DNA of 64,000 nt from Agarophyton chilense (taxonomy: Eukaryota > Rhodophyta > Florideophyceae > Gracilariales > Gracilariaceae). Each line of letters starts with the position of its first letter. The stretch's first letter is position 1. The stretch lies in assembly GCA_030374765.1 (NCBI GenBank), contig JARGXX010000106.1, positions 298,022-362,021 of the forward strand, given 5' to 3'. Below are positions 39,280-62,159 of the stretch, in pieces. A program made the position numbers and the translations under genes. The notes under the pieces were generated by a model. It did not search any database, was not told the origin of the DNA, and saw only the letters and a program-made list of their open reading frames with translations.

Positions 39280-39350
39280 GTCCGAGACAAAACGGGTGTC
39301 TGAGACAAAACGGGTGTCTGAGACAAAACGGGTGTCTGAGACACCACGGG
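39280..39350. repeat. 17-bp minisatellite, second array
   Basis: The same 17-bp unit as at 38440-38495 but with one extra copy. The array therefore changes length between otherwise nearly identical R modules. Confidence 0.75.
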
Positions 39351-40640: not shown

Positions 40641-41549
40641 CCTATATATATTACAGGTTGTAAGTGTGGGCTGGCGCTTGGTAAAACGCAGTTGTCAGTA
40701 GCGCTTGGTAATTACATACACCAAGCGCCACGCGCTGCATTCGACGTATGTGCGATTTTGACCCCCTGGATGGAAAACGTTGTGCTGGAGAGCGCGTATG
40801 ACACATTGGCACGCTCAAAAAATCGTGGCTAATTGCGCTCAGGCGCTTCGTTCGGGTAACGTAGCGCGCGAATTGCCAGATGTTGGCGCGCAGCACCCAT
40901 TTTCGCAATATTTGCATTTGAAAAAATCATAAATTTTAGGCGCGCTGGGCTTTCTGCCAAATCCTGCGTTTGCACATGTTTTATTGTAACATTTTTGCTG
41001 CACAACGTGGAGGCGTGCGTCGAGTGTGGCACTCAAAGGCGCTTGGTTTCAGCCACATCTCCGCTGCACAGTCGAGCTGTGTTGTAAGCTGGATAATGTG
41101 CGAAATTTTTATCAAAAGAAAGGGTTGTGTTATGCGTTTGCGCTTGGTTCTGTGGCTATTTCGTGGAGGCAGATGGCACATTGTCAGGCGTTTTGTATGT
41201 GCGTTTTTGGGGTCGTGTACGCGGCTGAAAAAGGTGCGTTTGCGCTTGGTTCTAGGATGGTTTTCATATCCGGCAACACTGGGGGTCGATATTCGATGGT
41301 ATTGCCAAGTTCAATGTAGGTTGAGTGTGGTGAGTAGTAGGTCACGCGAGTGCTGGCGCCACACTCTCAGCTAAAGAAGACGCGTGCAGTGCGTTTAGTG
41401 AGGTAGGGATGACGTATGCTTAACGATGACAGGTAGATTCTTATGACGTTAAGGTTTGTCCAACAGTGGCATCGCCACTAAGTAGCTATCGGTCAGGGCC
41501 TACGGGAGTTTACGTTTTCGTAGAGGAAACCATTGTGTACGGGCTTTTA

Positions 41550-41830
41550 CAGGTTTCAGGGGTTTAGGGGTTTAGGGGTTTAGGGGTTTAGGGGTTTTAG
41601 GAGAAGCTTTACCTTTATGGGATTTTGAAGTTACGGAGAGGAAAACATTGTGTAGGGGTTTTAGGGGTTTTAGAGGTTCAGGGGTTCAGGGGTTCAGGGG
41701 GTTTAGGGGAAACTTTACCTTTATGGGATTTTTTATTTACGGAGAGGAAAACATTGTTTAGGGGCTGGAGGGCTTTAGGGGTTTTAGGGGAAGCTTTTCG
41801 TTTATTGGATTTTAGGGGTTTTAGGAGTCT
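41550..41830 (+). repeat. Telomere-like G-rich runs, second block
   Basis: Contains four perfect tandem TTTAGGGG units (41563-41594), then degenerate TTTTAGGGG/TTCAGGGG runs separated by repeats of a gaagctttacctttatggga spacer. This resembles interstitial telomeric sequence. Whether the host's own telomere repeat is TTTAGGGG is unknown to me. Confidence 0.65.
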
Positions 41831-41840
41831 AGAGTCGAGA

Positions 41841-42213
41841 CGTCAAGTTCCATTATAGTACGAATGCGTGGTGAACAGATTGTTTGAGGGTGTACTCGAT
41901 ATCTGCGGTGGTTGGATAAAGTTCTGTGTTGAGCGACCTGCATTCGATAAGTGTACTGGGCTTTATGTGTAGGACTGATATAGAGTGTAGGTTGTTTCGT
42001 TACACTGTATTTTTGAGGCGGAGTTGGGGTATTTAGGGGCTGAGGTTGAGCTGGAGATAGAGTCGTTTGAATAACGCTTGTTGCTGGGTTGGGTGTAATG
42101 TAACGGTCGAATATGGGGTGTTTGGCGTTATACTTAAGTATAAAGAGTAGGAAATGTGGTTTTCTGTGGCAAGGAAGAGAGTTGAAAGCAAAATGGAGAA
42201 AGAAGAATGGGTG
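41841..42213. other. Spacer between repeats and helicase 3' end
   Basis: No gene recognised. It forms the downstream flank of the minus-strand helicase gene. Confidence 0.4.
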
Positions 42214-42219
42214 TTTATT
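42214..42219 (-). terminator. Polyadenylation signal of the helicase gene
   Basis: AATAAA on the minus strand, about 28 bases past the stop codon at 42247-42249. Confidence 0.5.
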
Positions 42220-42246
42220 GTACCGGGTTGGAATCTAAAATCGTGC

Positions 42247-45200
42247 TTAAATGAGTGTTGTGGTTGACTTCCACCAAGCTGCAAGGCGTAGAATGTTGGG
42301 TACGGCAAAGTGGTTGTTGTGTGTTAACCAATCATGAAACATGGCGTCTATTTCAAGGTGGAGGGGTGAGGAATCTTGGGAGGATTGGGAAATGGAGTTG
42401 AACTTGGATTGCATGCGGCCGTCAAAGAGGTGGAGTGCAATTTCGGAGCGAGTTTTGGAGCATGTTCGCCACAAGACCCATGCCAGTTGATAGAGCGAAA
42501 TGAAGATGCAGTGTCTTGTTCCAAAAGTGTGCGGTTGAGAATGAGTTTTGAGTCCCTTGCAGAATCCGAGATGGCAACGGTAGCAGGTTCCTTGAGGTGA
42601 TTTATCGAACCTGCAGTTGCGCGATATATGGTGCGGCGAAAAGCATCTGAAGCATCGTTGACGGGAATGGGGGCATGCATGAGTGTCCGTCAAGTGCACT
42701 TGCGTTTTTTCGTGCAGCAAGCATGGCACACAGAGAGGGGCAAGTCGGCGGGAGAGCTCCTCGAAGTGTGACACGATTTGTTGCGGTGTTTTTCGTTCCA
42801 AGGTGTAAAAGAAGGTGGCAGAGTGCGACTGAGATTGAGAATGAGCGACAGTGGGCGATTGGGTCGCTGCGGATGGATGCGTGGTTGTCAGCAACGGCGA
42901 TGGAGTGGAGGTGGGGGGTCGTGGTGGACGACTGGCGTGGGGTTTGGGGCTTTGTGTTGGGCCGCCGTTGGTGTTGGTGTTTTGGTTGTTTAAGGATGTT
43001 CTGTTTGATTGATTGGCACGGTTTTTTGGCGGCGTGGGCGTTTGTGGGGAAGCGCTGGGTGACGGTGAAATGGATTGGGCGTGCTGAGAGGCAGAAGGGG
43101 TAGCGGAAACGGAGCTTCGTTCCGGGGTGGGAGAGGGGGAGACAGCTGCGATGCTATTGCAAATATCGCAATTAAGAACCGAAGGAGAGAAGAGACAGAT
43201 GCCTGGTTCTTTTCCGTCCATGTGGAAATAGAGGGCGTTCCTTCGACAAACAGATTTGCATTCGACCCAATGCTGCGCTTCCAACCAACGCTCCGTGGAA
43301 AGTGCTTGGTTGTATATGCGATTGGGCTCCTCAAACGCATTTGTGTTGGATGAGGACGAAGAAAGAGTTTCCGTAACGAGTTTGAAGTAGGGCTGGAAAT
43401 AAATGGTGACGCAAGTGGATGGGTTTCCATCGCGGCCGGCCCTGCCGGCCTGTTGCGCGAGGTCGCAAAGACTCGCTACTCCACCAAAGTTGAAAACCAG
43501 GCGAACGTTGGGAACGTCGATGCCCGTACCAAAAGAAGAGGTGCAAACCATGAAGAGAATGTGGTTGGTTGTGGGTGCGCTGGAAGAAGGCGGAGAGTTC
43601 CAAAGGGTGTGAGCCCGGCGTTTACGAACATCGGAGAGACCAGAATGGTACAGGAGAACCGTGACAGTAGTGGATTGTTTAAGGGCACCAAAAGAAGAAC
43701 GCGAAGCGGCGAGAGCTTCATGGACAGCTTCGGCAGCCGGGCGTGTTAACGAGAATATAAGAACGCGAGCTAGGGTTGTGTCAGCCGACGAGTGAAGCAA
43801 TCGAGCCACATGCTCTTGCATGATTGAGACGCCCAGCTGAAGCAGGTATCCAAACACATCCTGAAAGTGGCCATGAGCGGCGCGAAAGCGTGTGGCACGC
43901 GAAGTGCTGGGGGCTGAGCTTAGCTGATACACGACAAAAGAAATGTTGTTTCTTGCAGTCGAAGAAGCGTACACATGCGCGTTCGGGATATGCAGCTGCG
44001 ACAGAAGAAGGGGGCGGTCGCGCGGCGGCACTGTCGCGCTTAAAAGCACGCGAGGGATCTTTGTGGGAATATGGCCGAAGCAGTTGTGGAGGTTGGCCAA
44101 GCACGGGCGAAAGTGTTGCCATAAAAGAAATAAGTGACATTCATCGATGGCAATGCGGGCGAGGCGGTCGGCGGCGATCAGTCGCGTGGTGAACTCTGTA
44201 AAAGAAGGAAGAGAAAGTCTTTCAGCGGAAAAGATGTAAATGTCGGCAAAGGAGTGCGATCCGGGAGGGGTGGGTGTACGAGAAGCACGAAGGCCGAAGA
44301 GCTGAGCGCGCAGTTCGTATTCACTGAGCAAGGCTGTGAGAGGGGTGATGAGAACGGTGGAGTATTTGCCCTTTTCCATGAAGACGGGGAGCAGAAGAGA
44401 TAGTGTTTTTCCAGATCCAGTCGGCTGGAGTAGTAGCATGTTGGACAGCCTGTTGTACACGGCCGCTGTGTTCACAAATTGTTGGTGGGACTTGAATAAA
44501 GCGGAGTCGTTGGAAAGTGCCTGTCTTAGTGCTCGGAGCATTTCTGATGTAATATGTTCGTAGGTCACAAGCGGTTGTTGTAAGAGAGAAGCTCCACCGC
44601 GCGGTATGGCGGCTGCCATAAAAGCAGGCGGATGTGGATTGAAAGGATGAGAGGCGGCCAGGTTTAGGTTGATTTGAGAATGGGGGATCGCAGAGCGGTC
44701 AGTGGGAGGGGACGGGGTTGGCTGCGATGTATGGATGGAGCGCTTTGGTTCAGGTGTAGGTAGAACTGTGTCAGTAACCGGACGTTTTCTGTGGTGTTGT
44801 TGTTGTTGTTGTTGTTGGGTGAGGGGAGCATTAAGAAGAAGACCGAGATACTGGTGCCATTTGCTGGACCACTCGCGATATTTGGAAAGTTGAGAGTGCT
44901 GCAAACCGGATATGTCATGTGGTGTACGAGCGTAAAGAAAAGCGGCGGTGTGCGCAGAGTGGCCCGCCTGGCCATGGGCAGTGGTCAATAGCTCTTCCAA
45001 GATGTGATCGGCTACAGAAGATGCGGTGACATTGGAAACTGTGTTGGTCATTCCCACGGTGAAGTTTCTATAGTCGTTGAAGGATATCGGGAAACCGCGT
45101 TTGCTCAAGTGAGAGCTGATTATCGAGCGGATGGTGTTTGCGGCATACGGAATTCCGCAGTTGGCGAACAGCATTTTCCAATGCATCTGGAAACAGTTTT

Positions 45201-47789
45201 CTCCGTGTAGGCAGCGGACGATATATGCTTCAAACGGACGTATCAGAGTCAAGTACATGAGCAGAAGACGGGATGTTTGGGCATCGGGAAAGCGAGCAAT
45301 CGGAGTGGCGGCCCCTTTGCTGTTTCGCGTTTTCATGTACCGGCAAATGAGGACAGGCGATTTGTCGATGAGCATGAGACAACGTTGAAAGTGTTGGTCG
45401 TTGTGGATACGGTATGTCTCAATCTCTGTGCCGCGCGCAGGAGAGCCCGACGAAAGGTGTAGCGCAACCAACAGGCGTTCTTGGATTTTCTGTGCACATG
45501 AGAGCCACCTCGACAACGCATGCGTGAACATATCGGTGCCCAAAATGTCGGTTGTGGGCAGTTGTGTGCGGGGAAAGGTACCGTTTTGCTTGCGTTGCGG
45601 AAGAAACGGAGTGTGGTCGGTGTTGGAGTTGTGGGGCATGGAAGACGTGAGACAAGTGAAAACGAAAGCCATGTTTTGTTCGATAAATGGGCGGTTGTTG
45701 AGGTTGGTAAGGAAAGAAAAGCCTGGGCTTTTGTTGAAGGAGTCGTCCTGAAGTGAGTGTAGCGCGTTTGTGAAACCGGTTGGCAGAGCGTGGCCAAGAA
45801 GCAGGTCGTTGTGAAGAGTATGTTGTATTTCTTTGTGTAGAGTTAAAACCAAAGAGCCGACTTCTGAGAGGGCGAGGTGAGTGTCACGCACTATGCCGCA
45901 GGACGGGTGAACATCACAATTGTGGAAAGAAACGAACATTTCCTCGCGAGAGGATATGGACATTGCAAGCGTGAGTGTCTTTCTGACAAACGAAAGGGCG
46001 TTGTTGGAATCAGCGTCGATTGCCGCGTCGATGGTACGCATGCGTTCTTGAACGTGAACTGGGCGTTCGGAAGCAGGGGTGGCAGGTTGCAACAGGGGAG
46101 AAGATTTGGAGAGCACGTGCAGTTCGTGTATGGCGCAGGCACAGATGCCATATTGAAGAGCGGCGAGGAGGTGCGTCACATCTGAGGCGGCTGCAAAACG
46201 AAAGGAGGTATTGTTGGGGTCGTGAGAAATGACCGTGTCGTAAGGCTCAGGCGTGCGGTCAGACGGCAAGGGGGCAGCGATAGGCGGGTTGGGGTCGGTG
46301 CTTATCACGCTTGCGCAAGCAATGAAGTTGCGAACGGAGAGGAGATCCAAAGAGTGGTATGGCGCTAAAGATTGAAGCAAGAAGGGCTTGAGCGCGCTAT
46401 GGACCGCTGGGCCATGTTGGGTTGGAGGAAAGGGAGCGGGGAGCTCACCAGAGGAAGACATGCGAATGGCATCCAACACGGAAGTAGTGTAGCAGTACAT
46501 GAGGTCTGAGTCGGGTACGAGATGAGGGAGGTTTGCCCTTGTCCTGTGAGTAAACACAAGCAAACGGGAAATGTGTGAAGCGTAACGCTTGAGGGTTTCA
46601 GTGGAGACAGTTTTAAAAGCTGTGTCGGTGCGCTTGTTGAGGCGGTCCAAGAAAGCCAGGGAGGTCTTACTAACCAAAATGTTCACCTGAGAGAGGTAGT
46701 CGAAGATGTGGTGGGTGATGGTGCTTTCAGCGGATGTGGGCGTTGTGCCAGTTCTGGATAGTTGAGCCGCCACATCCAGATGAACATGAAGCGAGTGAAG
46801 AACGATGTCAAACTTGGAAAAGGTGATGAAAGAATTCTTCTCCGAGTGGTGACGAAGCAAAGGGTCTGATTGCGAACAAGGAGCGCCGGTGTTGAACTTT
46901 TGTAAAAAGTGGTTAATGTGTTGAAGCGGGGGCTCGATGCCTTTGGCAGTCGTTGCCACTGGACGATGGGGTGGTTGGAGACAAACAGGCTGCGCCGGGG
47001 GGTATCAGGCCGTGCCGCAGGCGCCTGCGGAACCTGGAAAGTTTTGGACAAGCAGCCTATGGGTTGAGCATTGGTAACGGGGAATAAACGGCGACGAACG
47101 CCGCCGTACACTGTCTGCAAGGCAATACGGCCCGACGAGACGGTACGGTCAAGGTGTGGCTGGGCAACCGCAGGCGACATATTGTGGCATTCGATCAGAT
47201 GCGCTTGCAAACGAACGGGGTCGAGGTAGCAGAATTTGCAGAGCGGGCACTGATAGCCATTGTGAATGGCAATGTGTGCCAGGGGCGTGAGGAACGTAGA
47301 GGGCCCGGACACAAATTGAGCGTTGTGTTGGGGGCGATACTTTTGCCACACGGGGGCAACGTTAGAGTTGTTGCGCAAGGTGTGCACCTCGTGCAGGATT
47401 GCCATTGACATGGGACTTGCAATTTCCAAAGGGATGGAGTGCTGTTTGCGCAAGTGATGTTGGATTGCGCGGGCAGACGGCAGCCCACACTGGCAGTTGA
47501 CGCACAACGGAAAGAACCCAATAGAATGAATACCCATATTCACAATGGTACCGAGTGCCATGATAAAAGAGGAAGAATCGTCGGCTGCATTTGCGTCGGT
47601 AACGGGTAAGTCGGAATGGGGTTGAGCATGGGCGTCACGCGCCACGGGCGGAGGCGGTGGGGGGAGCAGGGGATTAGGGGGAGTGGGCGGTGAGATGTTC
47701 ACCGCAGCCCTCGGTGGGCTGTGCACCGAAGAGGGGATGAACACGGGCAAGCCATGTTCGCCGGCGGAGGATAAGCTGTTTTGCGACAT
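42247..47789 (-). CDS. C2H2/OrsD-like + tyrosine-recombinase-like + RecQ helicase (two frames)
   Basis: The first ATG is at 47787-47789. Frame 1 (to about 47003) holds a proline-rich start and two C2H2-type fingers, CVNCQCGLPSARAIQHHLRKQH and CPLCKFCYLDPVRLQAHLIECH, as in the OrsD domain. Frame 2 opens after TGA at 47005-47007 and runs to 42247. A -1 shift on the six-C run (46997-47002) would join them into about 1850 residues. Counting frame 2 from 46959: a recombinase-like region (490-690) with R509, K543, R631, H667 and Y676; polyQ at 715; and a RecQ-type helicase (830-1200) with QPTGSGKT, DECH, SAT and QQAGRAGRDG. A Cys cluster like the RecQ zinc site follows (about 1234-1267), then a Ser/Pro linker and a CCHC knuckle (1436-1449). 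Fungal telomere-linked helicases share the OrsD plus RecQ layout. Role inferred: DNA recombination or unwinding in the nucleus. Confidence 0.8.
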
Positions 47790-48758
47790 AACTGAACGTG
47801 TAAGAGAGAGAAGAAGACGCTTGGGAGGATTGTTTTTGAAGACGCAAAGAAAGACACACACAAACAAACACAATCGAGTTTGGGAGCATCAGCGAAATGG
47901 ACGGGTTCACTGCCGATATAGCAGTATAAGTAGTAAATAGGTGGGGCGAGGGTAATTGGAGAAAGGCGGTTTGGTGTTTTGGGGGAGGGCGCGTGTGGCT
48001 GGCTTGAGCAAATGGCATACTGTACAAGGGAACCTTCACGATACTATTTGGTATTGCAGGTCATTCATTCCCGGTGTATGACTGTGGGGTTGTGGGGAGG
48101 AGTGTGTCACAATAAAGCTCATTGGCCTCCGCCCCATTGAGGAGAGTGATTTTGTGTAAGGGGCGTGGTTTCCGTGCAGGGGGGGAGCGGGAAGGGGAAA
48201 AAGGGCAGCACAGAGAAGAGATGGGGCTGCGCGGTGGTGGAGTCGGGTTGGGGGAGGGCAGAAGTTTTCAGGGTGGGTTCGGACTTGTGTGTAAATGGAC
48301 GGAGGTTTAGAACGAGCTGGCGCGCGATCGGGTGCGCCAGCGGATGTTGTGCGGCAATGTGGCAACTTGTTGTGAAGCATGACGTTTTCAGAACGGCTAA
48401 CTAGTGGCGGTGGTGGCGTATCGTACACACGTATTAGTTTGAGCACAAGCGGTGCTGCACCGCGGTTGAGCTCATATATGCATATGCGACATGTTTGACC
48501 GTTGATTTTGGAAAAATGGTGCTACATGTGACGTGGGTAGGAGGGGTGCTATGTGTTACAGTATGCGCACTGTGTAACGTTATGATGGTGTTTGGCAAAA
48601 GAAGTGAGATGTTGCGGGGCGTGGCAGTGGGGGCCGAAGAAGAAGGTTATAGGTTTTCTGTTTTTAAAACGAATGAAGGAAGAGAGTTTGCGCGTGGTTG
48701 TTCTTAGGAGAGAAGGTTTAGTTTTTAGTTGTGTTCTACTGAGAAAGAAAAGAAACAA
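47790..48758. other. Intergenic region between two minus-strand genes
   Basis: About 970 bases. It contains the helicase 5' flank (a CA-rich run near 47855-47872 and a TATAAG-like stretch near 47927) and the 3' flank of the methyltransferase gene. Proline-rich minus-strand frames (48446-48036) look like shadow frames in GC-skewed DNA. Confidence 0.45.
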
Positions 48759-51700
48759 CTAATCTACAAGATCCACATGAAAGGTGTGTGTTTGTGGTTT
48801 TGGAACCCTGGGCCAATGAGCGTAGTCGTTTCCATAGTCTATTAGCACTTCTTCTTCTCGCTCGATGGTTCGGGTGGCTACTATTGTGATAAGGTGGTAG
48901 TCTTGGATTCCTGACTTTGAGTTTTTCAAAGTAGACGAAAGGCGCGCTACTACATTTGGTGTGCGAGGGTTGGGGAGTACCTTGTCCCGTAAGGCCTGAA
49001 TGTCGAGGTCCTCTGGGCGGTATTGGGCATCATTGATGATTCCGCCAACACAGAACGGGGCAGGCGTGATCCACATGGAGTGGGTTCCACGGTCTCCCGG
49101 GGTGGGCAGTCTGACAAAGTCCGGACCTGTCACTCGGATTTCCATGGAAGTGGAGTTGAAGCGCTCCACGGTGACGGCGAGCAAACCGTTGGCATACGAA
49201 GACTGTGTGGCGGAGCGTTTGGAGAGGTCGTGGTAGACGAGAGTTCCATAAAAGTAGCACACGGTGTCGCCTTCATTAAACTGGCGTGCGGCAAAGACCC
49301 CGTCTCCCGCCAAGGGGTGTCGGATGTCGGACTTTTTGGTATACACTCCATGGGCATACCCTTCTATGGCAAGTAACGTAGCCGGATCAATCTGAGTGAG
49401 AAGGCCCTGTTTCTCTCGCGGCCATTCATGCACCGGTTTAGTGCGGCAAACGGCTGCAAACTCACGGTCTTTCCACAAGTTGCAGAGAAAGGAAGCGAGC
49501 GGCGCAGGAAAAATTTGGTACTGTGGCAGACCGGGAGGCGCGGTCCAAAGGTATTTCGATCGCAGGTCCGTGTTCGGTAGTGAGCGAACTAGGCGACTGA
49601 ACTTGGCGATGAGATGGTGCGGCACTTCAATGTCGGTGCTGTTCTGTAAAACGGTTTTGATAAAGTGAACGACAGCATTGTGTTTTGCGTGAGCGTAACA
49701 CACTGCGTCTTTCTCGCACCCCAAAAAGCGTCTGTGACCTGGGAGCTCCATGCACGCCAAAGCGGTGGAACCCGTTCCGGCAAATAAATCCACCACCATG
49801 TCGCCAGGCTGAGAATAGCGGCTTATGAGTTCCTTGAGTAGAGCACGACTCTTCTGCTCCGGGCGTACTTTTTCAGTGACGGCGTTGTGATTGTTGGTGA
49901 CAGAATGCAGGCGATTCCAACGCAGGGTCTCGCCAGCGGCTAGTCCCGGCACGTTATCAATCACGTTCTTGTAAGCCGGGTAGCGAGAAGGAACGTAGTT
50001 GTAGTTGACGAGGTTTACGCGAGCCAGGTTTTCATCGTGAGTGAGCCCCGTTTTGATGCCGTGAATGGCGTACTCGGTGATGGGCAACGGCGACGTTCGC
50101 AGCCCGCGGTGGCTCCCAGTAGGATGGGAGGCGGCGCGGACGAAAACCAACGGCACAGGGTCCACCTTGAACAGCGCAGTATGGGACTCGGAAATGCTCT
50201 TGAAGCACGACAACCACGGCCTGAACTGGCGAATGGAGCAAAAGAGAATAAAGTGGCCGCCAGGGCACATCAGCTCGCCAATAACCTGCGCCGTGCGCTT
50301 CATATCGTCTTGGGAAATGGCGTCGTGGTTGCTGTTGTGGCGGCCAGCTAAGGACCGAATGTTGTAAGGCGGGTCGGTGAGGACCAGTTGCACTGCTCCG
50401 ACTGGAGATGAGGCGGTAGTTCGTTTGATAATATCCACCTGTACGAATTCTTTGAAATCGACACCGTAGAGGCGAATATGCTTTTCCATTTCGTCCTCCG
50501 CCTCTTGTAGAGCGTTGAGAGTAGTAGTTTGGGTGAAGGAGTGCGGCGGGAGGACGCGAGTTTCGTTGACGTTGTAGGGAAGATTTGGGGGTTGGGGAGG
50601 AGGTGAGGGACCAGCGGCGTTGGCGCGTTCCGACGACGACGGTAGTGGCGCTCCTGGATCAGGCGGAAGTTGCTGCTGTGACTCGTTCATAATGATGTCC
50701 ACCAACTCGGCTTCTTTTTTGGCTATCTCCACGGCCGGGTTGAGGGGTTGGCCTGGAATAGGACCGACCATGGCCATTCGAATCGGGGTCCAAAGTGGCA
50801 GACCGAACGTCGTGAAGCGGTGAGGGTACACGTCGACGGTCGAGTTATACTCGAATTGCGTCAAAGATTGCCAGCGAGCGGTTTCATCCATTTCGTATAG
50901 GAAGTCGTTGAAAAGCAGGCGGTGAAGGTCGTTCAAAAATTCGGAAGCTAGCACGCGTAGATTGCGGTCAACCTCGTCGGTGTGGGACCAGGCGACGCTG
51001 TCCACTTCAGATTGGACTTTGGAAGGCTGTGCGTTCTTGGCAAATGTGGTAGTTTGCGATAAAGGGGCGTAGCCTTCGCCGCGGCGTTCGAGAGCGTGGT
51101 AGGTTAGGGTGTTGCTGTCGAACAAGATGTACGGAGCGAGCATGTGCTCCAGTGAGTCATACCCAAGATGGCGGCAGAACACATTCCAAGAGGTCACAAG
51201 CTTGTGCACGACAAATGAAATTCGCTCGCACGTTTCGTGCTTAAAGTTTTGCAACGAAGGCAACATAGAGGTCGCGGTTGCAACGCCGGTATTGAGGCGT
51301 TGTTTCTTGGTCTGGCGCGATTTGAGTTTCTCGCGTTTGAGAGTGTAGATCATCGACAGATACAAAACCATTTCAAAACGAGATGCCTCAACGGTAGTGG
51401 AGAATCGTGAGCGACTGTCCTTGGAAGTTTGCGACTGTGGAGGCAGAATGCGCGATTTGAGGAAGGACGACAAGAGAGCCGTTTTCGGAATGAGCAAGTC
51501 GACTTGACGGCTGGGGCGGCGGCGATTTGTAGGCGCATTGGAAGAACGAGCACTTGCACGGGTGGTACCATTACCAGCAGCAGAAGACGGTTGCTGCTCA
51601 GAAGTATTGCTTGAAGCTTGGATTTGGAGGTAGAGCTGGTACAAGTCCCTGAGACGCCGGTCGTTGCTACCATCGTCGAGGTCCACACATCTGGCCATGA

Positions 51701-51956
51701 GGTACACCTGAGAAAAGTAGTTGTTTTTGAGGAGGCTGTGTTGTATCTCCGTGTTGGTGTACTTGCCGTGCTTTTCAGATGGCACGACCAAGGAGCAAAC
51801 TTCCTCTGCAGCTGGCACAGAGCCTCGGTTCTGAACTGCGAAGTAGACCAAGTCCAGGTACTGGAGCGCGCGGGCGTTGGGATCATCGGGGCGCATGCGG
51901 GCGTACGCGTCGCGCAGCGGCAAGAACAAACCAATGAGACCTTCGGTGGTGACCAT
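48759..51956 (-). CDS. DNA amino-methyltransferase fused to a SET domain
   Basis: 1065 residues from ATG at 51954-51956; upstream in-frame codons lack an ATG. Residues 1-480 are a helical region I do not recognise. About 500-780 is a beta-class adenine-N6/cytosine-N4 methyltransferase: catalytic motif IV LVLTDPPYN (about 525-532), then SAM-binding motif I VVDLFAGTGS (about 721-730). The order IV before I defines the beta class. About 883-1045 is a SET domain: GDGVFAARQFNEGDTV, GGIINDAQ in place of the canonical NHS block, and EEEVLIDYGNDYAHW. The protein would methylate DNA bases and, if the SET domain is active, protein lysines. The NH-to-ND change could weaken it. Single exon and intact. 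It lies 970 bases behind the helicase on the same strand. Confidence 0.85.
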   Translation of the reverse strand: MVTTEGLIGLFLPLRDAYARMRPDDPNARALQYLDLVYFAVQNRGSVPAAEEVCSLVVPSEKHGKYTNTEIQHSLLKNNYFSQVYLMARCVDLDDGSNDRRLRDLYQLYLQIQASSNTSEQQPSSAAGNGTTRASARSSNAPTNRRRPSRQVDLLIPKTALLSSFLKSRILPPQSQTSKDSRSRFSTTVEASRFEMVLYLSMIYTLKREKLKSRQTKKQRLNTGVATATSMLPSLQNFKHETCERISFVVHKLVTSWNVFCRHLGYDSLEHMLAPYILFDSNTLTYHALERRGEGYAPLSQTTTFAKNAQPSKVQSEVDSVAWSHTDEVDRNLRVLASEFLNDLHRLLFNDFLYEMDETARWQSLTQFEYNSTVDVYPHRFTTFGLPLWTPIRMAMVGPIPGQPLNPAVEIAKKEAELVDIIMNESQQQLPPDPGAPLPSSSERANAAGPSPPPQPPNLPYNVNETRVLPPHSFTQTTTLNALQEAEDEMEKHIRLYGVDFKEFVQVDIIKRTTASSPVGAVQLVLTDPPYNIRSLAGRHNSNHDAISQDDMKRTAQVIGELMCPGGHFILFCSIRQFRPWLSCFKSISESHTALFKVDPVPLVFVRAASHPTGSHRGLRTSPLPITEYAIHGIKTGLTHDENLARVNLVNYNYVPSRYPAYKNVIDNVPGLAAGETLRWNRLHSVTNNHNAVTEKVRPEQKSRALLKELISRYSQPGDMVVDLFAGTGSTALACMELPGHRRFLGCEKDAVCYAHAKHNAVVHFIKTVLQNSTDIEVPHHLIAKFSRLVRSLPNTDLRSKYLWTAPPGLPQYQIFPAPLASFLCNLWKDREFAAVCRTKPVHEWPREKQGLLTQIDPATLLAIEGYAHGVYTKKSDIRHPLAGDGVFAARQFNEGDTVCYFYGTLVYHDLSKRSATQSSYANGLLAVTVERFNSTSMEIRVTGPDFVRLPTPGDRGTHSMWITPAPFCVGGIINDAQYRPEDLDIQALRDKVLPNPRTPNVVARLSSTLKNSKSGIQDYHLITIVATRTIEREEEVLIDYGNDYAHWPRVPKPQTHTFHVDLVD

Positions 51957-52389
51957 CTTGTAAGACGGAACTTGGAGAGATATTCGAAGTGTCGGTGGAG
52001 AAGGCTGGGGGCGGAGATAGAGAGATAGAAGGGGGGGTGATTGAACGAAGAGAGACTTGTTCTTTTGAAGGGGAATTCGGGGGCTGAAGTTGTGCAAGGG
52101 CGTCTTGATTGAAGGGGTCGTGGGGTTTAGGGGTTCAAAGAGCGGGGCCGTGTAGGGGTTTGCGCAATGGTGAGGTCTTGGGCTTTAGCGGGTGCGTGTA
52201 CGTCAAAGCCGTTCTTGATCGTAACTCGATACCGCAGCGGGCGCAAGAATCCAAAACAAGCAACACCGCTGAAACAACGACAAAGTTTCGAAAGGCGAAC
52301 GTTGCCAAGCGGAGAGGACTGCAGAAGAGCGATAGCCGACAGCTCAAATACGGTCGGGGTCGGTTAACGTGAGATGCAGTTTGAGGGAG
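51957..52389. other. 5' flank of the methyltransferase gene with a telomere-like motif
   Basis: No gene. GTGGGGTTTAGGGGTTC at about 52121-52137 resembles the telomere-like runs at 40.5-41.8 kb. The 773-bp array starts directly after this stretch. Confidence 0.45.
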
Positions 52390-55300
52390 CAAAAGGGGGA
52401 TTGCCTGCAGGCAATAAATTTCAACTGCGAATTACGGCTCATAATTTGCACCCCGATTGTTGATTTGCATTATTATTTCGCACTTTCGGGGTGCAAATTA
52501 TGAGCCGTAATTCGCAGTTGACCAAAAGTGCCCGCAGGCAATTTCACTCAATGTGAGCAAACTCGTTTCTCTTCTACCAGGCGCCGTACCAAGGCCATAG
52601 ACGCTGTATAGAGCCGATTCCCATGCCTGTGTCTCCCTCTCACGGCTTTATACCGGCGGAAACGAAGGTTATTGAACCTGTTGGGGCTGAACGCCTTTTC
52701 TAGCGTCGCCCAACCTTACACTACCACAGGCGAATACTGTGGAATTTGAAAGGTGAACGAGCTTGCGTAAAGGGTGCCGACAGACATGTTTGTGGAAAGA
52801 CATGTTTTGGTGCACTTCCGAGAATTAGTAGCATCTGTATAGAAAGGAGAGTGGTGAGAAAGTTTGGTTTTTTAGAGTACTTGGTTGAAATTGAAAAGTT
52901 GAATGTACATGAGTTGTGACACGGTGCAGTGAAGAAGAAGCGTTGTGGGCGAGTGAAGGTGTTTAGTGAAACATCATTAGGCTTTCGGTTTTGCAATGAC
53001 GCTTGATATGGGTTTAAGCAGGCGTATGCGAGATATGAGGGGTGTGGTGAGAGTTTACGAGTGTGGCGCAAATGTAGGGAGGGGCGTGTGGGCGAAGGCG
53101 AAAAACGGGGTGTTGGGGGCCCAGGGGGGTGTTTTTGGATGTGGGCAGACGTAGTCAAAAAGGGGGATTGGGATTGCCTGCAGGCAATAAATTTCAACTG
53201 CGAATTACGGCTCATAATTTGCACCCCGATTGTTGATTTGCATTATTATTTCGCACTTTCGGGGTGCAAATTATGAGCCGTAATTCGCAGTTGACCAAAA
53301 GTGCCCGCAGGCAATTTCACTCAATGTGAGCAAACTCGTTTCTCTTCTACCAGGCGCCGTACCAAGGCCATAGACGCTGTATAGAGCCGATTCCCATGCC
53401 TGTGTCTCCCTCTCACGGCTTTATACCGGCGGAAACGAAGGTTATTGAACCTGTTGGGGCTGAACGCCTTTTCTAGCGTCGCCCAACCTTACACTACCAC
53501 AGGCGAATACTGTCGAATTTGAATGGTGAACGAGCTCGCGTAAAGGGTGCCGACAGACATGTTTGTGGAAAGACATGTTTTGGTGCACTTCCGAGAATTA
53601 GTAGCATCTGTATAGAAAGGAGAGTGGTGAGAAAGTTTGGTTTTTTAGAGTACTTGGTTGAAATTGAAAAGTTGAATGTACATGAGTTGTGACACGGTGC
53701 AGTGAAGAAGAAGCGTTGTGGGCGAGTGAAGGTGTTTAGTGAAACATCATTAGGCTTTCGGTTTTGCAATGACGCTTGATATGGGTTTAAGCAGGCGTAT
53801 GCGAGATATGAGGGGTGTGGTGAGAGTTTACGAGTGTGGCGCAAATGTAGGGAGGGGCGTGTGGGCGAAGGCAAAAAACGGGGTGTTGGGGGCCCAGGGG
53901 GGTGTTTTTGGATGTGGGCAGACGTAGTCAAAAAGAGCGATTGGGATTGCCTGCAGGCAATAAATTTCAACTGCGAATTACGGCTCATAATTTGCACCCC
54001 GATTGTTGATTTGCATTATTATTTCGCACTTTCGGGGTGCAAATTATGAGCCGTAATTCGCAGTTGACCAAAAGTGCCCGCAGGCAATTTCACTCAATGT
54101 GAGCAAACTCGTTTCTCTTCTACCAGGCGCCGTACCAAGGCCATAGCTGCTCTATAGAGCCGATTCCCATGCCTGTGTCTCCCTCTCACGGCTTTATACC
54201 GGCGGTAACGACGGTTATTGAACCGGTTGGGGCTGAACGTCTTTTCTAGCGGCGCCCAACCTTAGACTACCACAGGCGAATACTGTCGAATGTGAATGGT
54301 GAACGAGCTCGCGTAAAGGGTGCCGACAGACATGTTTGTGGAAAGACATGTTTTGGTGCACTTCCGAGAATTAGTAGCATCTGTATAGAAAGGAGAGTGG
54401 TGAGAAAGTTTGGTTTTTTAGAGTACTTGGTTGAAATTGAAAAGTTGAATGTACATGAGTTGTGACACGGTGCAGTGGAGAAGAAGCGTTGTGGGCGAGT
54501 GAAGGGGTTTTGTGAAACATCATTAGGCTTTCGGTTTTGCAATGACGCTTGAAATGGGTCTACAGAGGCGTATGCGAGAGACGAGGGGTGTGGTGAGAGT
54601 TTAGGAATGTGGCACAAATGTAGGGAGAGGCGTGTGGGCGAAGGCGAAAAACAGGGTGTGGGGGGCCCAGGGGGATGTTTTTGGATGTGGGCAGACGTAG
54701 TCAAAAAGAGCGATTGGGATTGCCTGCAGGCAATAAATTTCAACTGCGAATTACGGCTCATAATTTGCACCCCGATTGTTGATTTGCATTATTATTTCGC
54801 ACTTTCGGGGTGCAAATTATGAGCCGTAATTCGCAGTTGACCAAAAGTGCCCGCAGGCAATTTCACTCAATGTGAGCAAACTCGTTTCTCTTCTACCAGG
54901 CGCCGTACCAAGGCCATAGACGCTGTATAGAGCCGATTCCCATGCCTGTGTCTCCCTCTCACGGCTTTATACCGGCGGAAACGAAGGTTATTGAACCTGT
55001 TGGGGCTGAACGCCTTTTCTAGCGTCGCCCAACCTTACACTACCACAGGCGAATACTGTGGAATTTGAATGGTGAACGAGCTCGCGTAAAGGGTGCCGAC
55101 AGACATGTTTGTGGAAAGACATGTTTTGGTGCACTTCCGAGAATTAGTAGCATCTGTATAGAAAGGAGAGTGGTGAGAAAGTTTGGTTTTTTAGAGTACT
55201 TGGTTGAAATTGAAAAGTTGAATGTACATGAGTTGTGACACGGTGCAGTGAAGAAGAAGCGTTGTGGGCGAGTGAAGGTGTTTAGTGAAACATCATTAGG

Positions 55301-57180
55301 CTTTCGGTTTTGCAATGACGCTTGATATGGGTTTAAGCAGGCGTATGCGAGATATGAGGGGTGTGGTGAGAGTTTACGAGTGTGGCGCAAATGTAGGGAG
55401 GGGCGTGTGGGCGAAGGCGAAAAACGGGGTGTTGGGGGCCCAGGGGGGTGTTTTTGGATGTGGGCAGACGTAGTCAAAAAGGGGGATTGGGATTGCCTGC
55501 AGGCAATAAATTTCAACTGCGAATTACGGCTCATAATTTGCACCCCGATTGTTGATTTGCATTATTATTTCGCACTTTCGGGGTGCAAATTATGAGCCGT
55601 AATTCGCAGTTGACCAAAAGTGCCCGCAGGCAATTTCACTCAATGTGAGCAAACTCGTTTCTCTTCTACCAGGCGCCGTACCAAGGCCATAGACGCTGTA
55701 TAGAGCCGATTCCCATGCCTGTGTCTCCCTCTCACGGCTTTATACCGGCGGAAACGAAGGTTATTGAACCTGTTGGGGCTGAACGCCTTTTCTAGCGTCG
55801 CCCAACCTTACACTACCACAGGCGAATACTGTGGAATTTGAATGGTGAACGAGCTCGCGTAAAGGGTGCCGACAGACATGTTTGTGGAAAGACATGTTTT
55901 GGTGCACTTCCGAGAATTAGTAGCATCTGTATAGAGAGGAGAGTGGTGAGGAAGTTTGGTTTTTTGGAGTACTTGGTTGAAATTGAAAAGTTGAATGTAC
56001 ATGAGTTGTGACACGGTGCAGTGGAGAAGAAGCGTTGTGGGCGAGTGAAGGGGTTTTGTGAAACATCATTAGGCTTTCGGTTTTGCAATGGGGCTGGAAA
56101 TGGGTCTACAGAGGCGTATGCGAGAGACGAGGGGTGTGGTGAGAGTTTAGGAATGTGGCACAAATGTAGGGAGAGGCGTGTGGGCGAAGGCGAAAAACAG
56201 GGTGGTGGGGGGCCCAGGGGGATGTTTTTGGATGTGGGCAGACGTAGTCAAAAAGGGGGATTGGGATTGCCTGCAGGCAATAAATTTCAACTGCGAATTA
56301 CGGCTCATAATTTGCACCCCGATTGTTGATTTGCATTATTATTTCGCACTTTCGGGGTGCAAATTATGAGCCGTAATTCGCAGTTGACCAAAAGTGCCCG
56401 CAGGCAATTTCACTCAATGTGAGCAAACTCGTTTCTCTTCTACCAGGCGCCGTACCAAGGCCATAGACGCTGTATAGAGCCGATTCCCATGCCTGTGTCT
56501 CCCTCTCACGGCTTTATACCGGCGGAAACGAAGGTTATTGAACCTGTTGGGGCTGAACGCCTTTTCTAGCGTCGCCCAACCTTACACTACCACAGGCGAA
56601 TACTGTGGAATTTGAATGGTGAACGAGCTCGCGTAAAGGGTGCCGACAGACATGTTTGTGGAAAGACATGTTTTGGTGCACTTCCGAGAATTAGTAGCAT
56701 CTGTATAGAGAGGAGAGTGGTGAGAAAGTTTGGTTTTTTAGAGTACTTGGTTGAAATTGAAAAGTTGAATGTACATGAGTTGTGACACGGTGCAGTGAAG
56801 AAGAAGCGTTGTGGGCGAGTGAAGAGACGCAGTGAAACATCATTAGGTTTCGGTTTTGCAATGACGCTTGATATGGGTCTAAGCAGGCGTATGCGAGATA
56901 TGAGGGGTGTGGTGAGAGTTTACGAGTGTGGCGCAAATGTAGGGAGGGGCGTGTGGGCGAAGGCAAAAAACGGGGTGTTGGGGGCCCAGGGGGGTGTTTT
57001 TGGATGTGGGCAGACGTAGTCAAAAAGAGCGATTGGGATTGCCTGCAGGCAATAAATTTCAACTGCGAATTACGGCTCATAATTTGCACCCCGATTGTTG
57101 ATTTGCATTATTATTTCGCACTTTCGGGGTGCAAATTATGAGCCGTAATTCGCAGTTGACCAAAAGTGCCCGCAGGCAAT
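52390..57180. repeat. Tandem array of a ~773-bp unit, six units plus a partial
   Basis: The landmark TTGCCTGCAGGCAA recurs at 52401, 53174, 53947, 54720, 55493, 56267 and 57039, spacings of 773, 773, 773, 773, 774 and 772. Each unit carries a perfect long inverted repeat, then about 630 bp of near-identical sequence. Two sequence types alternate: for example 54.1-54.3 kb has ggcggtaacgacgg and gcggcgccc, where the neighbours have ggcggaaacgaagg and gcgtcgccc. A 167-codon minus-strand frame is open in four units, but it has no motif and is probably not a gene. Confidence 0.95.
52422..52520. repeat. 33-bp perfect inverted repeat with 33-nt loop (first of ten)
   Basis: Left arm 52422-52454, right arm 52488-52520, perfectly complementary over 33 bp. 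Arms begin CAACTGCGAATTACGG and end TTTGCACCCC; the loop is 52455-52487. The same structure starts at 53195, 53968, 54741, 55514, 56288, 57060, 62270, 63045 and 63822. The copy near 63.1 kb has lost one G of an arm. It would form a strong cruciform or hairpin. Confidence 0.95.
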
Positions 57181-57616
57181 TTGCCACACACAACCCCCCT
57201 AAAACTTATAAAATTTGGTGTCTGTGCAGCGGTTTTTTTGGAACGGATCGCGATTGCTGTGACGCGTGTCACGCGTCGTTGGGGTTCAGGTTGCCACTAC
57301 ACAACCACTAGGAGCCCTTTTTAGTTTTTCGCGGAAAGGACGGAGTCGAAGTACACCCGTTTACACCCGTTTTCCCCGCCGTCACATTCCTTCCCTTTCC
57401 CGAACTGCAGCCTCTGTCTTGTTTTGTAAACGGATCAAGCGGGCGCCATCAAAGTTCGCATCAAGTCTGCACTTTTACTTGAATCATCTCCCCGCGGGCC
57501 TGAGTTTCGGATCTGCCGTATTTGGCTTTGTGTTCCGCCTTCATTCGCCCGTGTCATAGTTTTTTTTGTCACGCTCTTCTGCGCGCATCTCCCCGGTTCA
57601 TATTGTGTGTATTGCA
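57181..57616 (+). other. 5' flank of the ParB/dioxygenase gene
   Basis: The array ends abruptly within its unit, and unique sequence follows. It holds a C-strand telomere-like motif AACCCCCCTAAAAC (about 57191-57204) and a TATAAAA at 57207-57213, a possible promoter about 400 bases before the ATG. Confidence 0.4.
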
Positions 57617-60600
57617 ATGCCATCGCGTGGAAAACATCAAAACATGAAAGCAGCCGACGTCGTGTTTCTTTTGGCGAAAGGCGAAGGGGGAAACCGCCGG
57701 CGCGTCGGAACGGCTGTGTTGATGCCTGGTAGGAAGGAGGGGGAATTGTCCAGGGATATGCATGGATCTAGCCTAAAGAGCTTTGAGGCGGAAGGTGAGG
57801 ATTTGGTGAAAGTTCGCAGTGTTAAGATCCTGCCGGGGTTTGACGACATTAGGTACCCGTACCGATTTGGTGGTGTGGAAGAACCGCCTGCAACACTGGG
57901 TGGGGTGTTACCGAATTCTTTTTATTCGTGGGACCTCGGTATGATGGAGGCGATGGAAACAACAGGGGAGGTGGTTGAGGTGGATTCAGATGAATCCGCT
58001 GATGCGGTCGGAAAGAGGAGGAGAAAGTCCCCACCCCCGTCGAAGGGTACTCCCGACGTACAACGGCGTCCACCTACGACGCCCCGAACGGGAAGTCGTA
58101 AGACGAGGTCCCAGAGCCGCCAAGGGCGCGCATCGCAGCGCTCGAATGCATCTGGTTCGACTGCAACTGGTGCTGGGGCAACTGTTGCCACCGTTTCTCC
58201 TGGTACAATTCGACGCACTGGGCGACCTCGTCTGAGGTCTCAACCAACGCCGCGCAGGGGCACATCCGTTTCACGCGCAGTAACGCCACGCCCTCGTACG
58301 CCACCGGGCGGAACGATTGAAGTGGGTACTTCGGCCGCCAAGGCAGTGGAGGTGGATGAGGACGTCATTTTCACGGGTATGAGGTCGGGCCCGTCGAACA
58401 CCCGGTCATTGTCACAAGCGGTGGAGCCTCCGAAACAGGCTGTTGCGATCCCCACCGATAGCAAGATTGAGCTGAACCACTATAGGCAGGTGAATGCTAC
58501 GGTGGATATCGGCAGAATTCGCTACGGGGAGCATCAAGTGCGGGCATTGAATGGGCAGCACAGGGAGAATTTGAAGGTTATGATGGAGCAGCAAGGTGTT
58601 TTGGGAGCGGTTGGGCGGGTGAGCGTTGCAATCGTGCTCGGCGGCAGATCAGTGGATGAGGTTCTTCAAGGCAATTCAATTACCTGTGAGTGTCTGTTGG
58701 TGGATGGGCTTCATCGTTTGGTGGTGTACCAAGACCTGAGGAACACGTCCCAGAGGTGGAAAAGCATGACCCAAGTGCTGGACGTCGTTCTGTGGTTGCG
58801 ACCGGACGGGAAGGACCTCACAAGGAAGGAGCGGTTGAGCATCGGTTGTAAGCTGAACATCATGGCAAGCAACGTGTTGGCGATGTCGTTTGCAGACCGC
58901 GTGCACACCACCGTGTCGTTCATAATGGCGTCAGTGTTGGATGACAAAGTGAAGGTCAAGTCACTGACGTCATATGCGGTGGCAGTAGCGATGCAAGAGT
59001 TTATGCTACTCGGCACATTGGAAACGACGCAACTTCGGCGCTACGCCGACATTGCCCTTGCTCTTGTAAGGAGCCCGGAGTTGCTGAGCAACTTTGAGAA
59101 GGTGTGCAAAGAGGCGCCGAAGTTGGGTCTGTCGCATTTGTCGGACGACCGGTTGTACACACTCGATGAAGGCGGTTTTTTGTTTTGCGTGGAGTGTGTG
59201 AAGGCTTTACTGGGTACCCGCGGGGGTTTCGAAGGGGGGAGAAGGGGCCGTTTCGAGGATATGCGGTATTACTTTTTCAAGTTTGCGCTGCAGGTGTACT
59301 TCTTTTGCCGACAAGTGGCAGAGAAGAAGGACGTGACGGTTGCCGCCGTGCTCGACACCCAAATGAGCATTGGCGGAGTGGAAACGTCCACCGTGCGGAA
59401 CTTCCTCGTTATGATTGTGTCGAAGATGGAGAACTCCGGGAGCGACCGGCAGTGGGAAAGGAAGCTGGAGCGCAAAATGAAGGAAGTGACGGACAGGATG
59501 GAGGGGTTGTTTGAAGTAGGGAGTGAGGAGAGGAGTAGGGACAGGGTCTCCAGCGAGCCCTCGGGGCAGCATCAAAGTCGGAGCGCTCCGGGACGGGCGA
59601 AGGTGAAGACTGTGGCGCCGTCGCCGGAGGTGGCTGTGTTGGACTTGGACGACGACATGAACTACAACGAGTCGCGTCCAAGGGTGAGCACGCGTAAGGG
59701 GAAAGGAAAAAGAACTGTTCCAAGGGTGGAAGAGGTGCCGGTTGGGCGTGCAAGGGGTGTGAAGCGAAAAGCTCCTGACACGAGACTGTCTCCACCCAGT
59801 CGCCGGTCGAAGAGAACCCAACTGGCACAGGAAAGGGAGTTGTTGCAGCGGATGAAGCAGTTGCGGAGAGATACTCTGTTTGAACTGTTGGGGAACCTGG
59901 GAATCCGCGCCGAGAACTTCTCAGACGGCGAGGGTAATGAGGCATTCGTGACAGACGATGCAGTGGGTGAAGGTGTGCAGCAGGGTGGGGAGGGGTCGAT
60001 GAGAGATGCTGACATTGAGCGCCCATTTGACGACTCTAACCCTCCCGATGGACCGCCGCAATGGATGAGGCTGCCAGAAACTTACAAAGGGGCTTCATCG
60101 CCGGCATGGTGTAATTGGGCAAATGTGCCGCCGAGCATGTTGCCAAAGGATGTTAACGTGATTGAACACGTGCATCCTTGGCTGGACACCATCCATATGG
60201 CGTCCAAGCACCGAGCTGAATGCCTGACGGCGGAAGAGCTGAAGCTGGTCCACCATCTGGTGTTTTGGCACGCCGCGAAGGAGAAGCATGCGGCGCTGGA
60301 ATCTACCAAGGTTCCGGTGTTTGGACAAGTGCTACCGACGAGCGGCAATCCGAAAAGTGAAGAGGAGCGCCTGTGGATGGCAGCGATGGAGCGGGATGAG
60401 TTGGCGTTGGAGTTCTTCGGTGAAAAGCGCAGGGAGCTGCAACACCAAGGGTTCTGCATTTTGGAATCGTTTGCAACCGATGAGGGTGCGCCGAAATGTT
60501 TGAATGGTGGGGATGTGTCTGGGAAAATGCTGCAATGGTTTGAAGACAACTTCAAGCAGCAGCCCGACTTGCGGATTGAATCGAACCGCATAAGATGGAA

Positions 60601-61510
60601 CCCGATTATCAACGCCGGATCGGCGGTGGATGGGAAGGATCGGAATGTAGGAGTTGGAAGGTTTATGACGACCCGAGCCGGGATGGTGGATGCAGTAGAA
60701 CGCGACCCGCAATTGGAGTGGCTTGTTCGGCGTCGGGCATTGTTGGATGCGCGGCTGGGCCAGATCTTGTGTGCGTTGCGATTGAACAACAACCTCAGCA
60801 ACAGCATCAAGATGCATGGGCCGGTGACGGGAGGCAGAGTTTTGTGCACGAGCTTGGAATGCCGGCGGCAAGCTCTTCACACCGACTTTCGAGGGCTGAC
60901 GCACGAAGAAAGGGAGGCCGGAGGGAACCCGGGGTACTTTATGATGGTTTCTGGGCAGTTTTCGTTCCCCATATGGGTGTGCGAAGATTCGCACCGCACG
61001 GTATTCGGAAGCTTGCAGCGCCTGAAGCAGCTTTCGAAGAGCATGGAGGTGAAAAAGTTGCGAGTGCCGCCGTTCTCTGTTTTCATTGGCAGGGGAGACG
61101 TGTTCCACGCTGGAGCTTCTTACGAAGACGGGTACATGGAGCGTGAGCTGGTCCGCTACCACATGTACATGGTGCCTGACGGATATCAGCTCCCTGATGC
61201 AGTTCACCGGCAACAGGGATTCACTCCGCGGTTTGTGTCCAATGATGACGTGGACCTACAAGCCGAAGAGGAATATGAAGGACTGGGGGAACAAGGGACC
61301 AAGAATAACTCCGGAGAGGACGATGAGCAGTCGCCGATAGAAGCAGACGAGATAGAAGCGATGGAGGTGGCCAACGACGAATCGGATTTAGACGCGGAGA
61401 TTTTGCAATTGGTGGGAGGGGACAACAACGGCTATGCAGGGGCTGATAGCGATGGCATTCATGAGTCTGACTGGGTCGTCAGTGATGAATCTGAAGCCAA
61501 TAACGCATGA
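57617..61510 (+). CDS. ParB-like domain protein with Fe(II)/2OG dioxygenase-like C-terminus
   Basis: 1297 residues from the first ATG (57617-57619) to TGA. About 120-270 is a basic, Pro/Arg/Ser-rich linker with nuclear-localisation-like clusters. About 290-400 is a ParB/sulfiredoxin-type domain: IRYGEHQVR, then LLVDGLHRLVVY (about 360-371), matching the DGxHR signature. About 630-760 is charged and may be coiled. About 940-1190 looks like a double-stranded beta-helix dioxygenase: LHTDF (H and D about 1088 and 1090), distal His in GDVFHAGASY (about 1164), then a conserved Arg in a RELVRYHMY block for 2-oxoglutarate. The C-terminus is acidic. Substrate unknown; a DNA-base oxidase is an inference from its methyltransferase neighbour. 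Flanked on both sides by the 773-bp array. Confidence 0.75.
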   Translation: MPSRGKHQNMKAADVVFLLAKGEGGNRRRVGTAVLMPGRKEGELSRDMHGSSLKSFEAEGEDLVKVRSVKILPGFDDIRYPYRFGGVEEPPATLGGVLPNSFYSWDLGMMEAMETTGEVVEVDSDESADAVGKRRRKSPPPSKGTPDVQRRPPTTPRTGSRKTRSQSRQGRASQRSNASGSTATGAGATVATVSPGTIRRTGRPRLRSQPTPRRGTSVSRAVTPRPRTPPGGTIEVGTSAAKAVEVDEDVIFTGMRSGPSNTRSLSQAVEPPKQAVAIPTDSKIELNHYRQVNATVDIGRIRYGEHQVRALNGQHRENLKVMMEQQGVLGAVGRVSVAIVLGGRSVDEVLQGNSITCECLLVDGLHRLVVYQDLRNTSQRWKSMTQVLDVVLWLRPDGKDLTRKERLSIGCKLNIMASNVLAMSFADRVHTTVSFIMASVLDDKVKVKSLTSYAVAVAMQEFMLLGTLETTQLRRYADIALALVRSPELLSNFEKVCKEAPKLGLSHLSDDRLYTLDEGGFLFCVECVKALLGTRGGFEGGRRGRFEDMRYYFFKFALQVYFFCRQVAEKKDVTVAAVLDTQMSIGGVETSTVRNFLVMIVSKMENSGSDRQWERKLERKMKEVTDRMEGLFEVGSEERSRDRVSSEPSGQHQSRSAPGRAKVKTVAPSPEVAVLDLDDDMNYNESRPRVSTRKGKGKRTVPRVEEVPVGRARGVKRKAPDTRLSPPSRRSKRTQLAQERELLQRMKQLRRDTLFELLGNLGIRAENFSDGEGNEAFVTDDAVGEGVQQGGEGSMRDADIERPFDDSNPPDGPPQWMRLPETYKGASSPAWCNWANVPPSMLPKDVNVIEHVHPWLDTIHMASKHRAECLTAEELKLVHHLVFWHAAKEKHAALESTKVPVFGQVLPTSGNPKSEEERLWMAAMERDELALEFFGEKRRELQHQGFCILESFATDEGAPKCLNGGDVSGKMLQWFEDNFKQQPDLRIESNRIRWNPIINAGSAVDGKDRNVGVGRFMTTRAGMVDAVERDPQLEWLVRRRALLDARLGQILCALRLNNNLSNSIKMHGPVTGGRVLCTSLECRRQALHTDFRGLTHEEREAGGNPGYFMMVSGQFSFPIWVCEDSHRTVFGSLQRLKQLSKSMEVKKLRVPPFSVFIGRGDVFHAGASYEDGYMERELVRYHMYMVPDGYQLPDAVHRQQGFTPRFVSNDDVDLQAEEEYEGLGEQGTKNNSGEDDEQSPIEADEIEAMEVANDESDLDAEILQLVGGDNNGYAGADSDGIHESDWVVSDESEANNA

Positions 61511-62080: not shown

Positions 62081-62159
62081 AGCAATGGCCACTTGAATGC
62101 GCGGTGGCACCCTAGCGCGTGATGTTTACCATGTGCTGTGGAGGCTATGTGTTTTAGAA

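Follow-up and report, generated by a model that had tools for sequence, protein, structure and literature searches.

A repeated three-gene subtelomeric block in Agarophyton chilense and a related gene pair beside a Plavaka transposase

The block and its predicted proteins

The right-hand end of contig C106 of the red alga Agarophyton chilense (JARGXX010000106.1, positions 298022-362021 of 362021; assembly GCA_030374765.1, 79.8 Mb) carries a block of three large genes, called A, B and C here. The window, i.e. the whole stretch of 64,000 nucleotides that was analysed, ends where the contig ends. Read toward the chromosome end, the order of the genes is A(-) B(-) C(+). The block has the following features:

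40510-41790, + strand: telomere-like tract (degenerate TTTAGGGG/TTTTAGGGG, located by motif runs), G-strand toward the contig end; proximal edge of the block
42247-46959, - strand: gene A, predicted tyrosine recombinase and RecQ part, open reading frame (ORF) of 1570 aa; DEAD at ~44020-44448, Helicase_C at ~43426-43770
44836-45942, - strand: tyrosine-recombinase-fold domain of gene A, predicted from alignment, structure model and VIA search
46683-47873, - strand: N-terminal OrsD finger part of gene A, in the other frame in the window copy; OrsD match at ~47184-47507
48759-52097, - strand: gene B, predicted beta-class DNA amino-methyltransferase and SET; methyltransferase at ~49695-50393 (DPPY ... 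FAGTGS), SET at ~48831-49307
52242-57334: 773-bp tandem satellite between B and C, units with a 64-nt inverted repeat and a 29-nt loop
57566-61510, + strand: gene C; ParB-like motif DGLHR at ~58703-58717, dioxygenase-like HTD near 60878, H and R further on
62090-64000: 773-bp satellite distal to C, up to the contig end

An earlier note, made from the letters of the window alone, had described the three genes as intact. All three ORFs are present, but A is frame-broken in the window: relative to the copy on contig C76, in which A is a single ORF, there is one 1-nt gap, and the break falls within the ORF overlap at 46683-46959. The 900 bp adjoining the 3′ end of A (41350-42249) were 99.9-100% identical in three of the four other copies fetched and 95.6% identical in the fourth. 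The telomere repeats at contig ends of this genome are the same irregular repeat as the telomere-like tract, which belongs to the block. An excess of G over C on the + strand is strong over 40000-64000 in coding and non-coding DNA alike, with its onset near the block edge. The strand running toward the end is thus G-rich, with a skew of +0.19 to +0.44 in the block versus 0.03 in the first 36 kb, independent of gene direction.

Protein A is predicted to combine an OrsD finger, a tyrosine recombinase of the Xer/Cre fold and a RecQ helicase. Its helicase core matched PF00270 (4.9e-12) and PF00271 (3.4e-10), and the sequence contains a QAGRAGRDG motif followed by a cysteine cluster, which we take to be marks of RecQ. 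Tyrosine recombinases have the catalytic signature R...[H]xxR...H...Y. Residues R509, R631, H667 and Y676 of A (ORF numbering) were invariant in six of six aligned sequences and fit this set, the first H of HxxR being replaced by N; the structure model and the VIA search agreed with a tyrosine recombinase fold (Xer/Cre/Crypton-like). The Pfam matches, the fold and the four invariant residues bear out the domains that the earlier note had read in A. Named relatives of A came from one red alga and one basidiomycete, the best being a protein of Gracilariopsis chorda (31%) annotated as 'ATP-dependent DNA helicase tlh2'. A resembles red-algal and fungal telomere-linked RecQ helicases (TLH) and is a TLH-like subtelomeric helicase.

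The reading of B as a beta-class amino-methyltransferase joined to a SET domain was upheld by matches to PF01555 (61 bits, cut-off 26.7) and PF00856 (26.0 bits, cut-off 22.4). DPPY precedes the FxGxG motif, an order that presumably marks the beta class, and both methyltransferase motif regions were kept in an alignment of 20 sequences. SET methyltransferases have an NH motif and a pseudoknot Tyr motif; in B, IND stands where the NH motif is expected, and the terminal DYG is present. The nearest solved relatives by sequence profile were the bacterial N6-adenine methyltransferases DpnA, CcrM, MboIIA and RsrI, which are also nearest in motif order; unlike these beta-class enzymes, B is fused to SET and carried by eukaryotic elements. 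Among 8000 candidates scored from 5.8 billion proteins there were 20 relatives of B at 27-59% identity. The best phage family was phrog_67, a DNA methyltransferase family of 743 positions, whose matched part begins near position 139. B was full length at 97-100% in at least 21 copies, 20 of those 21 without a stop. One relative of B, P0025, has an RDGAHR motif ahead of the methyltransferase, and its N-terminus is possibly a ParB-like fusion.

C could be placed in no known family, as searches of Pfam (at E 10), PHROGs, NCBIfam and PDB sequences brought no usable match. The two motifs behind the earlier ParB-like and HxD...H dioxygenase reading are present, DGxHR, which we take to be ParB/Srx-like, and HxD...H...R, found in four of four aligned sequences. 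Profile matches did not follow: Pfam, PHROGs and NCBIfam gave no ParB match, DGxHR alone being shared, and Pfam, NCBIfam and PDB sequences gave no dioxygenase match. There were three relatives of C (52, 32 and 31%) among 7999 candidates scored from the same 5.8 billion proteins. The best of them, P0005, and the best relative of B, P0009, had the same contig count (4) and the same longest contig (20528), which is consistent with one source.

Copies of C were compared for silent and replacement changes. In five full-ORF copies (L014-L018, pooled) 29 synonymous changes were counted over 922 sites and 19 nonsynonymous changes over 3020 sites, which gives a nonsynonymous/synonymous rate ratio of ~0.2 (0.08-0.31 across the five). 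L010-L012 were identical to the reference. Left out of the pool were L019 (7 synonymous, 3 nonsynonymous; an insertion and a stop), the broken or incomplete L022 (15, 5) and L029 (5, 1), and the badly aligned L036 (68, 626). Because change among the five full-frame copies was mostly silent, selection has probably kept protein C. Near a telomere-capped contig end (G000:C21:638523-667259) C copies stand in tandem ~5 kb apart, several with stops.

Recurrence of the block at contig ends

The genome was searched with P0001 (A), P0002 (B) and P0003 (C); the counts refer to the matches listed and are lower bounds. There were at least 30 matches of A, 38 pieces of B and 34 pieces of C, mostly 95-100% identical. 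Seven of the 45 rows for B had been removed, six belonging to B′, a relative of B described below, and one being a 71% piece at C88:3114967. Eleven of the 45 rows for C had been removed as well: ten of C′, the corresponding relative of C (five of these ten are the C′ set counted apart), and a 24-residue piece at C116.

All 30 copies of A, 37 of the 38 pieces of B and all 34 pieces of C lay within 75 kb of a contig end. On contigs longer than 400 kb the corresponding counts were 24/24, 30/31 and 24/24, where ~10% is expected. To control for contigs that break off within repeats, two dispersed repeats were counted: 13 of 41 listed Plavaka transposase copies and 13 of 44 listed B′ copies were within 75 kb of an end (9/37 and 9/40 on large contigs). 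Orientation was consistent, with A pointing inward in 27 of 30 and C outward in 30 of 34 matches. B was found within 9 kb of A in 25 of the 30 A copies, and the A-B gap was 1803-1804 bp at 23 loci. The same order of A, B and a whole or partial C was seen at thirteen loci, the window included: C32 and C76 (both short contigs), C95 left and right, C96, C98, C103, C106, C107, C116, C117, C92 and C33. Some of the B-C gaps (1604, 2379, 3923, 4702 and 5469 bp) formed steps of one satellite unit. The three genes are thus found together repeatedly near contig ends, in a fixed order and with a fixed spacing between A and B, and are not scattered independently in this genome, in agreement with the subtelomeric system that the earlier note had proposed.

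Among 20 contig ends sampled, six carried the irregular TTTAGGGG telomere repeat, four the satellite, one the telomere-like tract, one B and one C, and seven carried other sequence. Block genes lay ~4-12 kb from the tip at four of the six telomere-capped ends (C95 left, C22 right, C21 right and C68 left), A itself being 4.5 kb from the tip at C68 left and 16.9 kb at C95 left. The capped ends C1 left and C88 left had no block gene among the matches listed. The ends of C92 and C99 (L046, L058) consist of another repeat, which holds GGTACTTGGTTGGCGACGGC or its complement.

Distal to its C, the right end of C95 re-enters the tract preceding A at 92% identity, which shows blocks in head-to-tail succession. 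Two A-B pairs each are present on C103 and C10. The block is a subtelomeric repeat, bounded by the telomere-like tract and arranged head to tail at many chromosome ends.

A second B-C pair and the hairpin arrays

Interstitial relatives of C (41%) and B (39%) lie side by side at C117:1470-1478 kb. This stretch encodes a Plavaka transposase (PF18759, 1.3e-22, 80.9 bits, cut-off 26.3), followed by B′ and C′ in divergent orientation, with 36-41% protein identity to B and C. After removal of one 52% piece at C135 from the 42 rows for the transposase, at least 41 transposase and at least 44 B′ copies were used. The 24 listed transposase-B′ pairs were all on opposite strands, with a gap of 3050-3095 bp in 20 of them, and the B′-C′ gap was 1.73-1.89 kb in five of five listed C′ copies. 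The left end of the element was fixed by two copies; its 27-mer had 97 forward and 97 reverse matches with up to three mismatches, and the control had none. B′ and C′ ride in a dispersed, high-copy DNA transposon beside a Plavaka transposase. Its left end does not start with either of the Plavaka termini named in section 3.2 of PMC12730594.

In the 17.5 kb read around the C117 pair there was no A-like gene. The block of the window, for its part, is not a Plavaka insertion: the left-end 27-mer is absent from the window, and none of six window ORFs scanned matched PF18759. A diverged B-C pair recurs in the Plavaka transposon as well as in the subtelomeric block; two kinds of selfish DNA thus share B-C as a portable two-gene module. 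The earlier view of the three genes as one set was right about their co-localisation in the block, but B and C also form a pair of their own. Single-protein scans of viral_contigs, which detect close relatives, gave no relative of B or C that would suggest a giant-virus or other viral origin. No paper in the open literature was found whose title or abstract describes the B-C pair.

In the block as in the transposon, a hairpin array lies between B and C and the two genes are transcribed divergently; one transposon copy and the window were looked at. The transposon gap (L061:3678-4523, C117) contains seven long perfect or near-perfect palindromes, and its seven modules are bounded by 14 TGTCGGCCGACA boxes, all 14 inside the gap; 0.05 are expected in 10 kb. 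The block satellite has one long inverted repeat per 773-bp unit. Single-strand DNA folds of three hairpins were far below those of shuffles (z -13, -14 and -15; z = -14 for window 53170-53318). The two arrays were not homologous: there was no match beyond 10-18 nt, and the sequences are unrelated.

Some features of the window lie outside the block. Just proximal to the telomere-like tract, at 38080-40941, there are direct repeats of 131-300 nt, 97-100% alike, with spacings of 642, 858 and 1061 bp. Next to the block on its proximal side, an open ORF (36572-37693, - strand) matched a nucleotide-diphospho-sugar transferase (PF03407, 2.5e-23). A Copia-type polyprotein ORF (16804-21354, - strand; RVT_2, 1.5e-18) also had a Tudor match (PF18115, 9.2e-6) barely above the cut-off.

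Possible roles and alternative explanations

The members of the TLH family (Schizosaccharomyces pombe tlh1/2, Ustilago UTASa, Magnaporthe TLH) are, like A, RecQ helicases in many near-identical copies at chromosome ends. Beyond this, A has a predicted tyrosine recombinase fold with its catalytic residues, which other TLH proteins may share (R, R, H and Y are kept in all of the six sequences compared), a fixed distance to B and, farther on, C. The block also resembles, by description, the Y′ elements of Saccharomyces, in which a subtelomeric helicase occurs in tandem copies beside telomere-like tracts; unlike the block, Y′ elements are not known to carry a methylase or an oxygenase.

Fungal TET+ DNA transposons, Plavaka included, carry a DNA-modifying dioxygenase, for which escape from methylation silencing was proposed (Kojima 2025, PMC12730594). 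This methylation escape is the nearest published idea to the B-C model. Crypton, RecQ and tyrosine recombinase do not appear in the main text of that paper. The Plavaka element described here differs from the TET+ transposons of that text in carrying a predicted DNA amino-methyltransferase-SET protein and a ParB-like/dioxygenase-like protein, the block counterpart of which, C, has no Pfam match. The same source names SET-carrying transposons, HarbingerS and MuDR of Phytophthora; they share with the present element mobility and a SET histone methylase, whereas here SET is fused to a DNA amino-methyltransferase.

We propose, with the balance about level, that A drives recombination of chromosome ends and that B and C act as a two-gene anti-silencing module, on a repeated subtelomeric block. 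In A the OrsD finger would find DNA, the tyrosine recombinase would cut and join it and RecQ would unwind it. A would thereby help the block to recombine or be copied from one chromosome end to another, a part also proposed for Y′ elements and telomere-linked helicases. B would methylate histones as well as amino groups of DNA bases, most likely of adenine, given its DPPY motif. With its ParB-like part C would bind the array of palindromes, and it would oxidise a base mark, the hairpins serving as address or promoter. Such marks on the element's own DNA and histones would keep the repeats expressed and recombinogenic. The module would have been captured by, or be shared with, Plavaka DNA transposons. 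These roles, including the writing and erasing of base marks that the earlier note had suggested, are predicted from sequence.

More tentatively, the pair may be a 'writer-eraser with address': a methyltransferase-SET and a putative ParB-like/dioxygenase protein, divergent across palindromes that serve as a parS-like address, adopted by two unrelated replicators (Plavaka and the recombinase-helicase telomere-end block) and rewriting base and histone marks of their own copies.

Several points weigh against the anti-silencing proposal. The main weak point is C, whose ParB-like and oxygenase labels are motif-based; its ParB-like segment was co-linear with the N-terminus of the B relatives P0025 and P0021, and the profile comparison was not significant (P = 0.076). 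The silent and replacement counts of C are small, and the copies may share changes. The SET of B may be inactive, IND replacing its usual NH motif. Instead of being targets of C, the hairpins might act as promoters, replication blocks or transposase sites, and the linkage of B-C to A could be passive hitch-hiking. As to the arrangement, one piece of B (95%) lies 664 kb inside a contig (C4:1098464), and some B-C gaps are not multiples of 773 bp (e.g. 3293, 4867 and 7321). Assembly breaks within repeats also produce contig ends; telomere repeats were found at only four block-gene ends, and the end of the window itself breaks inside satellite, not in telomere repeat.

Passive capture survives best among the alternatives, and we consider it rather unlikely. 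A would then be an ordinary telomere-linked RecQ helicase repeat, in which B, C and the satellite were caught (e.g. by a Plavaka-type element landing in the subtelomere) and co-amplified without joint function. Subtelomeres homogenise any content, TLH repeats are not known to need a partner, many C copies are broken pieces, and for five of the 30 A copies the matches listed include no B within 9 kb. The full-length, nearly stop-free copies of B and the low rate ratio of C argue against it, as do the pairing, divergent orientation and hairpin spacer kept in Plavaka despite the low protein identity.

It is improbable that B-C came from prokaryotes (phage-type ParB-methyltransferase ancestry) and works by modification as an addiction or self/non-self module, which would mark its own element, harm or silence unmarked DNA and thereby punish loss of the element. 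The phage family phrog_67 and the likeness of RDGAHR in P0025 to DGxHR of C would fit this; yet Pfam scans gave no nuclease domain, the ParB link lacks profile significance, and an oxygenase is not known to be part of such modules.

Equally doubtful is a domesticated host device for chromosome-end maintenance and heterochromatin, in which B and C would set the chromatin state of subtelomeres. Such a role agrees with the near-identical copies at many ends, the predominance of silent changes in C and the block genes near telomere-capped ends, whereas the same kind of pair in the evidently mobile Plavaka element, the decay of many copies and two of six sampled telomere-capped ends without a listed block gene speak against it.

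An assembly artefact, with repeats piled up at contig ends and their order derived from collapsed reads, is mostly excluded: several contigs do end within satellite, B or C, but the equally repeated Plavaka copies lie mostly away from ends, orientation is consistent, and block genes occur at telomere-capped ends.

Selfish DNA with its own epigenetic enzymes is known mainly for TET/JBP and for SET alone. If the anti-silencing proposal is true, the B-C pair in two unrelated selfish DNAs would be a direct case of mobile DNA with both a writer and an eraser, and amino-methylation as a eukaryotic anti-silencing device would become testable. The putative tyrosine recombinase fused to a telomere-linked helicase would provide a concrete enzyme for the spread of helicase repeats between chromosome ends.

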